Source: a virus
Strand: one strand, 5' to 3'
DNA: 64,000 nucleotides
IMG/VR virus record: IMGVR_UViG_3300027708_000012
Location: 186,001 to 250,000 of that record
Shown here: positions 36,790 to 56,492 of the stretch, one piece after another
Numbering within the stretch: the stretch's first letter is position 1
Layout of the letters: each line of letters opens with the position of its first letter
The notes under the pieces: generated by a model
Database searches by the model: none
What the model was told of the DNA's origin: nothing
The model's input: only the letters and a program-made list of their open reading frames with translations
Made by a program: the position numbers and the translations under genes

Positions 36790-36815
36790 TAATTTTTTTA
36801 AGAAATATGCAACCC

Positions 36816-36823
36816 TATAAATA
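36816..36823 (+). promoter_or_regulatory. T4-late-like promoter TATAAATA for the radical-SAM gene
   Basis: A perfect TATAAATA, 17 nt before the ATG at 36840, with AAGGAAAATT as ribosome-binding site. It decides the start: an upstream ATG at 36807 would precede the promoter. Confidence 0.7.
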
Positions 36824-36839
36824 TGTCACAAGGAAAATT

Positions 36840-37883
36840 ATGGACTTTACACCTGGAAAACCAATTAGAACTTATGCAGAAAATGGTGCATGGCGTGATT
36901 GGAGTACTGATGAATTGGTTGGGGACAAGCTAAACTTCTTACCAAATTGGAAATGTGGCGCAGGCGTTGACAGTCTATATGTTGATATGGATGGATACGT
37001 TTGGACAGCCAGTTGTCGTGTAGGCGGCAAATTAGGAAATGTATTTGAAGACTTTCGTGTGCCCGATGATTGGATTGATTGCAAACGTAATGTTTGTAGT
37101 TGCGGCGCCGACCTCTTTATTCCAAAAGTTAATAAAATTGAATTTAAACCATTACTTCGTAGAGGTGCTGGGTTAGAAACTGAAATTGAGCTACGTGATG
37201 ATACCCTAACTGATTTTGTTGCTATGGAAAGAACTCATGCAAGTAATCAAAAACAAGTTTATTGGGAAATAGGTCGTCGTTGCAATTATGATTGTAGTTA
37301 TTGCTGGCCGTGGATACACAATAATACCGATCCGCACAAATCGCTAGAAGAACTAATGAAAGCTACAGCACTGATAGAAGAGAAATTCACCAAAGGTGAA
37401 GCAGCTAACTTTATCATTAGCGGCGGCGAGCCAACGGTTAATAAAGATTTCTTAGACTGGTTGCGTTATCTAAACGCCATGGGACATCATGTTAGTTTGC
37501 ATAGTAACGGAAGTCGTTTACCGGACTACTACAGAGAAATCATACACTATGGTGATTTAAATTTAAGTGTACATTTTGAATTTTATGATCGTGCAAAGTT
37601 CGTTCGTGTAGTAGAAGCTATTGCAGACGAAAAAGCCAATAACGGTGGGTTAGGTCATCTGGAAATAAAATTCATGATGGCACCACATAATAGAGAAGAA
37701 ACATTAAGTTTAGAAGAAGAACTCAAAACTCTTCCGAATTTTATAGACTTTTGTACTTGGGCAGTAGTACCTATCCGTGGCGGCTTAGATAATAAAAATA
37801 GTAAGCCAAATTCAACTAGCGGAAGCGAAGTTATGGAGGGTTACACAAAGGAAGACTATATTTTGTTTGGAGACAGAAAGTGA
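36840..37883 (+). CDS. Radical SAM enzyme with N-terminal SPASM/twitch-like domain
   Basis: A 347-aa protein. The radical-SAM core follows GRRCNYDCSYC at about 155-165 (CxxxCxxC for the SAM-binding 4Fe-4S), with FIISGGEPTVN as the GGEP motif and LHSNGSR later. The auxiliary cysteine domain is at the N-terminus: WKCGAGVDSLYVDMDG, then ASCRVGG, IDCKRNVCSCG. In the gene at 40112 the same domain is C-terminal. Such auxiliary clusters occur in enzymes modifying peptides, glycans or nucleosides. It is coupled to the next gene by a GTGA overlap. Substrate unknown. Confidence 0.87.
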   Translation: MDFTPGKPIRTYAENGAWRDWSTDELVGDKLNFLPNWKCGAGVDSLYVDMDGYVWTASCRVGGKLGNVFEDFRVPDDWIDCKRNVCSCGADLFIPKVNKIEFKPLLRRGAGLETEIELRDDTLTDFVAMERTHASNQKQVYWEIGRRCNYDCSYCWPWIHNNTDPHKSLEELMKATALIEEKFTKGEAANFIISGGEPTVNKDFLDWLRYLNAMGHHVSLHSNGSRLPDYYREIIHYGDLNLSVHFEFYDRAKFVRVVEAIADEKANNGGLGHLEIKFMMAPHNREETLSLEEELKTLPNFIDFCTWAVVPIRGGLDNKNSKPNSTSGSEVMEGYTKEDYILFGDRK

Positions 37884-39401: not shown

Positions 39402-40112
39402 TTATCTAATATAAGTGTCATCTTTTAATGATTGTATAAAACTTTTAAGCTCTACAGCGTTAGCTACTTTATCCCATAGCTGTTCAGTTTTTCTCTTTTT
39501 TAGTTGATCATTTATTTTCCCGCGATATATTGGACGTTGTATGTATTCAAATAGTTCTGCTACTATATTTTCATAGTGTATAGTAGTGTAAGTTATATCT
39601 AGCGATTTCAACCAATTATCAAAATTCTTATTTTGTTCGTATAACCAAGCCATTTCTTCAAAGTGATGTATTTCTAAATCATCGGGTAAGTCAGATGCTG
39701 TAAATTCGTGCCACACACCTGTGGATAATGCTAGTCCGTAACTTAGTATTTGAGCTTCTATATCTTGTCTTTTTAACACTACAAATTCTATATTACATTT
39801 TTCTATTCTTTTAATAATTTCTTTATGATTAGGGATATTACTGTAAGGAAAAAATCTTACCACAAGTGATTGATTTTTGTCACCATTCTCTAATGCTAAT
39901 AGCACATTTTCAACACGTTCTTCTATAGAAATTGAGCTAGTATCATCGTAATAGTTAAGAGTGTTATCATCGTTTATTTTTACTCTAGTTTCTAAATTAT
40001 GAGTAAATGGCTCGTATAGGTTTGCCATGTTACGAGTTGAACTTTCAAGCAGTGTGGCCAGTAATTGACTACCACTACGCGGTAACCCTAAAATGCAAAA
40101 TCTCTTTTTCAT
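39402..40112 (-). CDS. Sulfotransferase family protein
   Basis: A 236-aa protein. The N-terminal ILGLPRSGSQLLATLL matches the PAPS 5'-phosphosulfate loop of sulfotransferases (GxPRSGST-like), and FVVLKRQDIEAQILSYGLAL matches the 3'-phosphate region. Probably transfers sulfate from PAPS to a hydroxyl of a glycan or small molecule. Its start overlaps the stop of the radical-SAM gene by one base, and the methyltransferase follows after 2 nt, so they are co-transcribed. Some families with this loop lack sulfotransferase activity. Confidence 0.82.
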   Translation of the reverse strand: MKKRFCILGLPRSGSQLLATLLESSTRNMANLYEPFTHNLETRVKINDDNTLNYYDDTSSISIEERVENVLLALENGDKNQSLVVRFFPYSNIPNHKEIIKRIEKCNIEFVVLKRQDIEAQILSYGLALSTGVWHEFTASDLPDDLEIHHFEEMAWLYEQNKNFDNWLKSLDITYTTIHYENIVAELFEYIQRPIYRGKINDQLKKRKTEQLWDKVANAVELKSFIQSLKDDTYIR

Positions 40113-41059
40113 TACTTTTCCTTAGTACTCATAATATCAAAATTACAATGACACATATTTTTGCTACACACTATTGGCTCAGTTGGGAGAGTTAAATCTA
40201 CGTCGTTTATTTTACCAACAGCACCACCCTCTTTACACCATCCTCGATAAATTGAACCATCCATATCAACAATCAATTGCTCAATACCAGCATAGCATTT
40301 CCAGCCAGACCAGTCATTGATTTTTTCGCTAATGAACCTATGCGCACTTGATACTTGGCTAGTACCGTCAGGATATACTACACGCATAGCACCTCTGTAA
40401 TAATCAAATGTCTTGGTAAATTTAATATGTTTACTGATTAATTCGTGTTGCTTATCAAATATTCTCTTTTGAAAATCATTATAATCATAGAGTGTATCAC
40501 CAAAGTCGTGGATCAATGGCTGCAAGGCCATACTAATATTGCCTAAATTTTTAATTTTATTTGCTACAGCATAACAATGATCAAACTTTTCAGGACTCAT
40601 CATTATGTTAACGTGAGTGCGTACATCGTTGTTTAATAATTTAACTACGTCAATAAAGTGTTTATCGTCAGCATGCTCTGGATGAAAGCTAAGACATACA
40701 TGATCAAAGTATTGTTTATTTTCTTCCCAGTATCTTAGTGTGCGTGATCCATTACTGATTAAACCAACTTTGACACCCATCTCAGAACAAAATTGACAAA
40801 TTTCAATAAAATGTTTATACATTGTGACTTCACCACCAGTGAATTCAAAATATATTTTTTTATGAAAATATTGATCTTTTACACGAGCAATGAAATTTTT
40901 AATTACGCTAGGATCAGGCCAATACTTTGATCCATCGTGCAGTGCTGAAGGACAATACGAGCAACTATAGTTACAGGTATTGCCCAAGCACCAATTGACT
41001 ACAAACCAATCTTCGTGCGAATTGTTTGAATGTTCTAACCGTATATATTTGTGTTCCAT
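40112..41059 (-). CDS. Radical SAM enzyme with C-terminal SPASM/twitch-like domain
   Basis: A 315-aa protein. CLGNTCNYSCSYCPSALHDG near residues 24-43 holds the CxxxCxxC cluster; EFTGGEVTMYKHF is the GGE motif; LISNGSRTLRYW follows. The auxiliary cluster domain is C-terminal: WKCYAGIEQLIVDMDG, RGWCKEGGAVG, IVCSKNMCHC. It shares clear identity with the N-terminal domain of the protein encoded at 36840, so the two enzymes are permuted relatives. It probably acts with the sulfotransferase and methyltransferase downstream. Confidence 0.87.
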   Translation of the reverse strand: MEHKYIRLEHSNNSHEDWFVVNWCLGNTCNYSCSYCPSALHDGSKYWPDPSVIKNFIARVKDQYFHKKIYFEFTGGEVTMYKHFIEICQFCSEMGVKVGLISNGSRTLRYWEENKQYFDHVCLSFHPEHADDKHFIDVVKLLNNDVRTHVNIMMSPEKFDHCYAVANKIKNLGNISMALQPLIHDFGDTLYDYNDFQKRIFDKQHELISKHIKFTKTFDYYRGAMRVVYPDGTSQVSSAHRFISEKINDWSGWKCYAGIEQLIVDMDGSIYRGWCKEGGAVGKINDVDLTLPTEPIVCSKNMCHCNFDIMSTKEK

Positions 41060-45616: not shown

Positions 45617-46207
45617 TTATGGACGTTTTGTTATGATTTCGTCAATCAACCCGTATTCCAAGGCTTCCTGCGCACTCATGTATTTGTCTCGTTCCATGTC
45701 GTATTTGAATTGCTCGTAGGTTTTGCCCTTGCTGTTATGGTTAACATAGATCTGTGTCAAATTCTTCTTCATTTTAAGAATCTCTTCGACTTGGATTTCC
45801 ATGTCTGTAGCCTGCCCACCTGCACCGCCCGAGGGCTGATGAATCATGTGTCGAGCGTTTGGTAGCATTTTACGCTTGCCAGGAGCACCAGCAGTAGCAA
45901 GCAGACTTCCCATACTACAGGCTTGGCCCATGACGACTGTGCAAACATCAGGCTTAATGAATTGCATAGTATCGTAAATAGCCATGCCAGCTGTAACCAC
46001 TCCGCCCGGACTATTGATAAAAAAGGTAATGTCTTCATTTCCTTGACTTTCTAAAAAAAGTAATTGTGCCACTAACAAACTGGAACTATGTTCGTTAACA
46101 TCGGTGTCTAGCATGACAATTCGATCTTTTAGTAAGCGACTGTAAATGTCGTAACTACGTTCTCCGCGAGCTTCTTGCTCAATAACCATTGGTACTAAAT
46201 TTGGCAT
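45617..46207 (-). CDS. clpP: ClpP-like serine protease
   Basis: A 196-aa ClpP peptidase subunit. Catalytic Ser98 in [15 protein letters not shown], His123 in [10 protein letters not shown], and Asp in [15 protein letters not shown]. The handle [17 protein letters not shown] and [10 protein letters not shown] are typical. Expected to form a tetradecamer that degrades proteins with a host Clp ATPase; no ClpX/A is seen in the window. Phage ClpP may redirect host proteolysis or process virion proteins. Confidence 0.95.
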
Positions 46208-55448: not shown

Positions 55449-56003
55449 TTATTCATCGTCACTCCAAGGAACTGGTCTCCAACCCAATCGATTTAAATCC
55501 AATTCAATTTCTTCAGTAACATGCCCTTCTGGTACATAGGTTCTGCCATCTGGATCTGTTTCAGGCATAACTGCGGTTAGTCCGTATCCTTTATCCCGGG
55601 TACCAATGCCGCTACAGTACCAATCAATATAGTCACCCTTTTCTTGCATATCGGCAATTATACCTCCGGCATGGCGCCAACTGCAACTCCAAACTTCGCC
55701 TTTCATTTCTTGCCAAAACTCTCTGCTTTGCCAAGTCATGTTGCACATTGCGGCATACAAGTTTTGAGCATAGATGTCCGACTGTTTAACTTTATCGCAA
55801 AGTTCTTTTGAACTGCGTAAGTCGTATTCCATATTGTTCTTTTGCCAAGCAGGATCTACGATTGCTTTGTCATCTTGTTCTTGCCAACTTTCGTACATGG
55901 CAATTAATTTAGAATCGGGCTCTTTGCCTTCATCTTGACACCGTTCAATATACCCGTCTCGTTGAAAAGTATGACGATCAGGGCTCTTATTTACTTTTAC
56001 CAT
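55449..56003 (-). CDS. Conserved phage protein of unknown function (184 aa)
   Basis: The ATG at 56001-56003 (MVKVNKSPDRHTFQRDGYIE) is chosen; a longer frame runs up to 56135 but would overlap the secreted-protein gene almost fully. Trp/Cys-rich middle (MTWQSREFWQEMKGEVWSCS, DYIDWYCSGIG) and acidic end (EIELDLNRLGWRPVPW). It overlaps the previous gene by 17 bases. Function unknown. Confidence 0.7.
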   Translation of the reverse strand: MVKVNKSPDRHTFQRDGYIERCQDEGKEPDSKLIAMYESWQEQDDKAIVDPAWQKNNMEYDLRSSKELCDKVKQSDIYAQNLYAAMCNMTWQSREFWQEMKGEVWSCSWRHAGGIIADMQEKGDYIDWYCSGIGTRDKGYGLTAVMPETDPDGRTYVPEGHVTEEIELDLNRLGWRPVPWSDDE

Positions 56004-56322
56004 TATGGAAATTACCTTGGATGCAATGGCGGACTTCGTGTCCAATTGTATGAAAATTTGCTGTAGGTCCTGTGATGATTGTACACTGAGTGCCTTCGTT
56101 ATTCCAAAAGCTGCAAGCATCGACACCAAATCCAAAGCCTTGTCCAGTTAATCGTTTGCTTTCTGCATCGCAAGCAGCCTGAACATTATTTACAGGTCTG
56201 AATGTAATAGTCGTTCGATTAGTCATGTTACGAGTCATAAGAAACTCTTCGTGCGGATCTTCTTGATAAGCAAACGAGTTAGCGGTTACTAACAAACTTA
56301 CAATTACTAATGCCTTTTTCAT
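55987..56322 (-). CDS. Secreted HExxH-containing small protein (111 aa)
   Basis: Signal peptide MKKALVIVSLLVTANSFA with cleavage near residue 18. The mature part has three Cys (VQAACDAESK, VDACSFWN, TQCTIITG) and C-terminal HTIGHEVRHCIQGNFH containing an HEVRH zinc-protease-like motif. No third ligand is obvious, so activity is uncertain; the motif may alternatively be chance. It probably acts in the periplasm. First protein gene after the tRNA-like RNA, with AGAGGCACAT as ribosome-binding site. Confidence 0.75.
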   Translation of the reverse strand: MKKALVIVSLLVTANSFAYQEDPHEEFLMTRNMTNRTTITFRPVNNVQAACDAESKRLTGQGFGFGVDACSFWNNEGTQCTIITGPTANFHTIGHEVRHCIQGNFHNGKSK

Positions 56323-56346
56323 ATGTGCCTCTGTGTGTTAATAAAA

Positions 56347-56457
56347 TGGTGTAGACGGTAGGATTCGAACCTACAAAGTCACCCTAAGGGCTAGACCCTT
56401 GCCCTCCGTTCGCCGAAGCTACTAGGAGGAGGTATACCAAGTTCCACTCACGTCCAC
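56347..56457 (-). tRNA. tRNA-like RNA gene with encoded CCA and expanded anticodon region (111 nt)
   Basis: Seen: acceptor stem GTGGACG / CGTCTAC (7 bp with one G-U), discriminator A and CCA at the 3' end, and a standard T arm GTAGG TTCGAAT CCTAC. D-arm-like GTGG...CCTC with a T-T mismatch and a GG-containing loop. Instead of a 7-nt anticodon loop, a 5-bp helix TCCTA / TAGGG encloses 36 nt that include a perfect hairpin AAGGG / CCCTT. Total length is about 25 nt over a standard tRNA. The G3-U70 pair and A73 are the main alanine-identity elements. It may be an intron-bearing tRNA-Ala, a reduced tmRNA-like RNA or a decoy. The amino acid is not assigned. Confidence 0.65.
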
Positions 56458-56463
56458 ATTTAT

Positions 56464-56492
56464 ATTATACAATCGATCTGCATTTAAGTCAA
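56464..56492 (-). promoter_or_regulatory. sigma70-type promoter placed directly at the tRNA-like gene
   Basis: Minus strand TTGACT at 56487-56492, 17-nt spacer, TATAAT at 56464-56469. The expected transcription start, about 7 nt on, coincides with the first base of the acceptor stem (56457), so little or no 5' leader would need removal. Confidence 0.88.

Follow-up and report, generated by a model that had tools for sequence, protein, structure and literature searches.

The window analysed here is a 64,000-nt stretch (positions 186,001 to 250,000) of the 345-kb phage record IMGVR_UViG_3300027708_000012. On its minus strand lies a 111-nt tRNA-like RNA, of which the first nucleotide (G1) is 56457 and the CCA end is 56349-56347, preceded by a promoter and followed by protein genes. 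The features are, in the direction of transcription:

56487-56492, minus strand: -35 hexamer TTGACT of a sigma-70 promoter, with a 17-nt spacer; the promoter has 11 of 12 consensus matches
56464-56469, minus strand: -10 hexamer TATAAT, with exactly 6 nt between its end and G1, the predicted +1
56347-56457, minus strand: anticodon-less leucine-type tRNA-like RNA of 111 nt (G1 = 56457, A76 = 56347), defined by family comparison
56451-56457, minus strand: 5' strand of the acceptor stem, partner of 56351-56357; 99.4% paired, five of its 7 pairs showing double changes (100 members)
56429-56449, minus strand: D arm with a GAG/CTC stem, the 13-22 pair and a loop containing A14 A15 and G18 G19 U20 A20a; nearest to phage tRNA-Leu
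56404-56428, minus strand: hairpin replacing the anticodon arm, mostly small-looped in the family and with no anticodon loop; its helix covaries
56378-56396, minus strand: long variable-arm hairpin GTC-TA-GCCC-TTA-GGGT-GAC, with double changes at all 7 pairs
56358-56374, minus strand: T arm, 100% paired (100 members), directly preceded by U48 (56375; 143 of 143)
56347-56357, minus strand: 3' strand of the acceptor stem, A73 (56350; 143 of 143) and the encoded CCA (141 of 143)
56323-56346, minus strand: A/T-rich trailer (TTTTATTAAC) and ribosome-binding site (GAGG, 56328-56331), from the CCA to the ATG
55987-56322, minus strand: gene (a), for an exported protein of 111 amino acids containing HExxHCxQGxxH; the mRNA behind the RNA begins with this gene
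55449-56003, minus strand: gene (b), the next gene, with a predicted start at 56003

Read on the minus strand, the order of the RNA is GTGGACG T GAGTGGAACTTGGTATACCTC CTCCTAGTAGCTTCGGCGAACGGAG GGCAAGG GTCTAGCCCTTAGGGTGAC TTT GTAGG TTCGAAT CCTAC CGTCTAC A CCA. The acceptor stem of this member (GTGGACG/CGTCTAC) comprises 7 bp and includes a G3-U70 pair, and its T arm is GTAGG-TTCGAAT-CCTAC. An initial annotation, made from the sequence of the window, had recognized an acceptor stem, A73, a genomic CCA and a T arm, all of which are indeed present on the minus strand.

Standard searches did not settle what the element is. Across the whole window, no family of Rfam 15, the tmRNA families included, gave a match at gathering score, ARAGORN with default settings called no tRNA, and no ordinary tRNA gene was present. 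The Rfam tRNA model (RF00005) scored the RNA at 23.1 bits (E = 0.016), under the 29-bit gathering score and with an alignment that omits the true 5' half. The intron-bearing tRNA-Ala(AGC) put forward initially could be obtained from ARAGORN, as tRNA-Ala(agc), when introns were allowed and the threshold was lowered, but the same threshold printed more than 100 tRNAs in the window, and the intron and tmRNA modes at lowered thresholds were rejected for these false positives. The single-sequence fold of the RNA was no better than that of shuffled sequences (z = -0.43), showing that the element could not be settled by its own sequence and that relatives were needed. The plus strand was rejected as the RNA strand: it folds merely as the complement, again no better than shuffles.

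Relatives were abundant among uncultivated viruses. An exact 28-nt pattern from the 3' half, which leaves the D arm free, matched at least 100 viral loci in IMG/VR, with the same unusual RNA in every one listed. A second 3' pattern, in which both the D arm and the acceptor were free, gave at least 59 further loci, of which 53 were judged to be members and four were ends of ordinary tRNAs; two of the 59 lacked the 5' part. A further IMG/VR scan used a D-arm pattern, and the abundance of the family is a lower bound. Taken over the pattern scans of IMG/VR viral contigs, the full-length RNAs collected numbered at least 143 distinct sequences, from 95 to 121 nt long, a count inflated by relatedness and drawn throughout from metagenomic contigs. 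The claim that a phage carries an unusual tRNA-like RNA in which a normal anticodon loop is missing is therefore backed by the RNA that these relatives share.

The RNA was not encountered in the cellular genomes and isolated phages searched. One genome from each of 84,980 species of bacteria and archaea was scanned with a pattern that would miss subtype-2 variants, and a single chance match (L186) with no T arm was returned. Alignments to 50,697 phage records yielded 3' halves of ordinary tRNAs only, with no family member among the isolates. The isolates nearest by clamp loader were Paride and PA5oct (Arenbergviridae; 57% identity), and in these, as well as in Phosso, Atu_ph07 and SCTP-2, the tRNA-like matches reached at most 38 bits and the RNA was not found. 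We read the carriers as large uncultivated phages, mostly of fresh water. A literature search that covered few subscription papers found no description of the RNA, and Rfam 15 contains none of the members; the family is apparently undescribed, and tRNA-like structures as such are an already known kind. In L235 and L256, the 5' half is swapped for unrelated sequence with the 3' half and downstream leader intact; these are either broken copies or assembly joints.

The predicted fold is tRNA-like, with acceptor, D and T arms, a long variable hairpin, and a variable hairpin in place of the anticodon arm. In 39 members, whose alignment was not fitted to the structure, 96.8% of cells were paired, and 153 cells carried double changes compared with 39 in shuffles; in 100 members, whose alignment was fitted to the structure model and is biased towards it, the values were 96.9% and 403 compared with 114. 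When the helices of the fold were slid, pairing in the 100 members reached 54% at most. Compensatory changes occurred in both replacement and variable-arm hairpins as well as in the acceptor and the T stem. The acceptor formed all seven pairs in 138 of 143 members and six in the other five, whereas the T stem was complete (5 of 5 pairs) in all 143, with the loop TTCRA. The D stem has an unusual layout: GAG/CTC is nearly invariant, a T.C/G.A internal mismatch lies beside the 13-22 pair, and this pair alternates between G.U, U-A and C-G, with an additional non-pairing G.G class (non-standard in 31 of 100 members). The replacement hairpin differs in both sequence and length and is the chief source of the 95-121 nt range. 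Its loops are mostly of 3-6 nt, frequently TTCG, GCAA or CTTG; the only 7-nt loops (AGCCAGG and ACCCCCA, two of 143) lack U33, and neither is anticodon-like. Having no anticodon, the RNA cannot read codons.

These results recast the central part of the molecule. The anticodon helix TCCTA/TAGGG proposed initially paired in 62.0% of cells in the 39 relatives, compared with a shuffle mean of 60.2%; covariation among relatives, suggested as a check, thus upheld the tRNA-like fold but not this helix. Its bases pair instead in the CTCC/GGAG and variable-arm hairpins, which covary strongly, so that there is no 36-nt insertion: a normal anticodon loop is absent, as had been noted, but the stretch consists of the replacement hairpin and the long variable arm.

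A degraded or intron-bearing ordinary tRNA, either tRNA-Ala(AGC) or Pro(ggg), is very improbable on this evidence. Its basis is the output of ARAGORN, which on default settings calls some members, short ones such as L005:145-240, tRNA-Pro(ggg), Arg(tcg), Ser(gct) or Gly(gcc). However, the identity so assigned disagrees among close relatives, the loops are not anticodon loops, and the hundreds of compensatory changes show selection. For tRNA-Ala(AGC) itself, the required helix lacks covariation, the putative AGC anticodon lies in the variable hairpin, and an ordinary tRNA-Ala(UGC) is encoded elsewhere: the tRNA cluster of the phage, approximately 16-34 kb further along the record, includes Ala(UGC) and two Leu. 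ARAGORN finds 28 ordinary tRNAs for nearly all amino acids at G000:C1:261025-275644 (L191), outside the window, so the genome holds a near-complete ordinary set.

Instead, the conserved nucleotides point to leucine. A73 and U48 were present in 143 of 143 members and CCA in 141. A14, A15, G18, G19 and A20a were constant also in the two scans whose patterns did not touch the D arm, on which the case for D-arm conservation rests because the D-arm pattern scan and the member regular expression fix part of that sequence; position 20 may be T, C, G or A and is variable in subtype 2, whereas A20a is fixed. The ordinary tRNAs that these phages encode show the D-loop signature GGAA(N)TGGTA(T/G/A)AC in 9 of 21 tRNA-Leu and in none of 139 others, and A15, U48 and A73 occurred together in all 21 tRNA-Leu. 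By similarity, the D region of the family ranked nearest to tRNA-Leu (Mann-Whitney p = 1e-11), with Leu accounting for 19 of the 25 best, and scored poorly against tRNA-Ala. The determinants of leucylation in E. coli are A73, A15-U48, G18G19, A20a and contacts between the D and T loops, and tRNA-Leu variants stripped of both anticodon arm and long variable arm stay active (PMC9976931). The family carries this set (A73, A15-U48, G18G19, A20a), whose rules come from E. coli and may differ in the hosts of these phages. In common with bacterial and phage tRNA-Leu, the RNA has the D-loop GGAA(N)TGGTA(T/G)AC, A14, A15-U48, G18G19, A20a, A73, CCA and long variable arm; it differs from them in lacking the anticodon arm and anticodon, in its shifted D-stem with a tandem mismatch, and in having its own promoter with a predicted start on G1 and an mRNA behind it. 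Thus, to judge from its sequence, the RNA appears to retain what leucyl-tRNA synthetase (LeuRS) reads and to discard what the ribosome reads, which would separate charging from decoding in nature.

Alanine identity, by comparison, has its footing in the G3-U70 pair of the window member, which is real; but the 3-70 pair is A-U in 90 of 143 members, G-C in 48 and G-U in only five, and the D region is leucine-like. The same pair, together with the missing anticodon that is also characteristic of the tRNA domain of tmRNA, could suggest a reduced tmRNA-like rescue RNA charged with alanine. Both are bacterial-type, anticodon-less and end in CCA. However, the segment that had been read as a resume codon and tag varies in length and sequence among members, so that neither a reading frame nor a resume codon is conserved, and the D arm is of leucine type. 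The small size and missing pseudoknots raised initially against a true tmRNA hold: the phage RNA measures 95-121 nt overall and has no pseudoknots or mRNA domain. It also lacks a conserved G3-U70 and has no Rfam tmRNA match at gathering. We regard a tmRNA-like RNA as scarcely credible, the weakest of the alternatives. Taken together, the rarity of G3-U70 and the unsupported helix mean that the alanine, tmRNA and intron-bearing tRNA-Ala readings all fail.

The surroundings of the RNA set it apart from ordinary tRNA genes. A -10 hexamer with at least five of six matches lies exactly 6 nt from G1 in 164 of 168 relatives, compared with 5 of 199 ordinary tRNAs at the same loci, and the -35/-10 spacer is 17 nt in 124 of 125. 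This sigma-70 geometry indicates that the transcript should begin at G1. An open reading frame starts within 75 nt downstream in 154 of 155 loci, compared with within 60 nt for 52 of 99 ordinary tRNAs at cluster ends; in most members the start codon is 13-45 nt past the CCA, and positions +1 to +4 of the trailer are 94-99% A/T (152 loci). In each of 20 records, covariance model R1 gave exactly one copy with a high score (87-120 bits), the window RNA scoring 117.8 bits in its genome record, whereas all other matches were at most 38 bits and nearly all of tRNA length. The conserved core, the promoter geometry, the position as leader and the single copy are thus established by sequence comparison among relatives.

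The gene behind the RNA varies: mostly protein (a), otherwise protein (b), an Hc1-like or a cupin-like protein. Protein (a) is an exported protein of about 105 amino acids with HExxHCxQGxxH, the HExxH being present in 97 of 97. It belongs to no Pfam family and has no relative in the PDB by sequence, and its AF2 model (pLDDT 88) gave no significant PDB fold match; it is possibly a minimal periplasmic metallopeptidase. Its HExxHCxxGxxH is invariant and accompanied by three more cysteines. Loci retrieved through protein (a) had the RNA immediately upstream in 10 of 10 cases. Where (a) is missing, the gene of protein (b) adjoins the RNA (e.g. L031, L053 and L064), and in subtype 2, with the acceptor GTGGTCG, an Hc1-like protein lies downstream. 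In several subtype-2 loci (L220, L222, L225, L257 and others), a possible small hairpin (TACTATTATAAGTAGTA) lies directly after the CCA, ahead of the Hc1-like gene's ribosome-binding site.

This constant place before an open reading frame favours a role in cis, which is the main rival: the fold would stay on the mRNA as a 5' leader and control the stability or translation of what follows, either as a helix capping the 5' end or through attachment of a tRNA-binding protein (LeuRS, RNase P or another). With a start on G1, the 5' end of the mRNA would be base-paired, and the regular linkage to the downstream frame and to protein (a) is consistent with such a leader. However, the downstream gene is not constant, there is only one copy per genome, and CCA, A73 and the T loop are kept, none of which a leader acting in cis would require. 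Sequestration of the Shine-Dalgarno sequence by the CCUCC stretch was rejected because it is not predicted: the ribosome site is not bound by the RNA (mean pairing probability 0.05) and the acceptor stem is retained in the mRNA context in 114 of 132 cases, which together make simple sequestration unlikely. On balance, we consider a cis-acting leader unlikely, though the most serious alternative.

The changing downstream gene, the single copy and the retained CCA and A73 favour instead a role in trans, as would be expected of an RNA unable to decode. Our preferred reading, to which we give slightly better than even chances, is that a leucine-type tRNA-like RNA that has lost its anticodon arm makes up the initial ~95-121 nt of a phage transcript, is charged and acts in trans. 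Host RNA polymerase would make 5'-pppG1...CCA-mRNA, the RNA being co-transcribed with the downstream gene and folding during transcription. Host tRNA 3' processing would then cut at the A/T-rich trailer and free the CCA end, host LeuRS (of which the E. coli enzyme needs neither the anticodon arm nor the variable arm) would add leucine, and the remaining transcript would meanwhile be translated. In trans, the product may serve as a leucyl-RNA or as a decoy for tRNA-binding enzymes such as LeuRS, EF-Tu or tRNA-targeting defence toxins. The D-stem mismatch and the non-standard 13-22 pair speak against charging, and LeuRS might refuse the RNA. Neither a Leu/Phe-tRNA-protein transferase nor a class-I aminoacyl-tRNA synthetase was found in eight phage records, so that no evident consumer of Leu-RNA can be linked to it. 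We read the RNA as non-decoding, probably leucylated and leading a phage mRNA. The stronger proposal, that it is a natural non-decoding leucyl-RNA, charged by host LeuRS and released from the mRNA 5' end to divert leucine, LeuRS or tRNA-binding factors for the benefit of the phage, is a tentative one and falls somewhat short of even chances.

The same cut after the CCA could have another purpose. If the RNA were a punctuation module, host tRNA 3' processing would simply set a short 5' UTR and the released piece would be waste. The A/T-rich trailer directly behind the CCA, the lack of a terminator between CCA and start codon, and the distance of 13-45 nt to that codon would all fit. It is nevertheless an improbable explanation, since it leaves the strict leucine set, the single copy and the start on G1 unexplained, and a short promoter-proximal 5' UTR would be a cheaper route to the same end.

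Viral imitations of tRNA are best known in RNA viruses and herpesviruses. The 3' tRNA-like structures of plant RNA viruses are viral RNAs that imitate tRNA and may be aminoacylated; the phage RNA differs in its 5' position on the transcript of a DNA phage, in its canonical T arm and CCA, in its leucine type and in being encoded once per genome. The TMER RNAs of the herpesvirus MHV68 also have a tRNA-like element 5' on a longer transcript, where it is made by pol III and leads pre-miRNA hairpins; the likeness is that of a viral tRNA-like 5' element and implies no relation. In the E. coli thrS mRNA operator, a 5' leader imitation of tRNA that copies the anticodon arm is bound by ThrRS. This is a model for a leader acting in cis, but the anticodon arm is precisely what the phage RNA lacks. 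An anticodon-less leucine-type tRNA-like RNA leading phage mRNAs appears to be new. For DNA phages it would represent a family of tRNA-like RNA that is widespread, single-copy and strongly covarying, and mostly missed by standard annotation, as ARAGORN is silent in the window and miscalls some relatives; phage database annotations may thus hold false tRNAs derived from it. If the proposal holds, a non-decoding leucyl-RNA would be a class of aminoacyl-RNA without earlier description, and the role of non-translating aminoacyl-tRNAs in phage infection becomes testable.

A radical-SAM gene lies divergently upstream of the RNA in 118 of 152 loci, in both subtypes, and an S-adenosylmethionine decarboxylase gene takes its place in the window. 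The divergent radical-SAM protein has about 325 amino acids (FCNYNCSYCWPYARSD; e.g. L010, L088 and L102), and a distant homologue (28% identity) is encoded elsewhere in the window. A ClpP-like protease (45617-46207, minus strand) and two radical-SAM proteins (36807-37883, plus strand, and 40112-41059, minus strand) form part of the phage's load of host-like genes for metabolism and protein turnover. In the tRNA cluster of an Hc1-associated subtype-2 relative, a GOLLD RNA (201.7 bits; L192:2928-3390) overlaps a tRNA-Asn gene.
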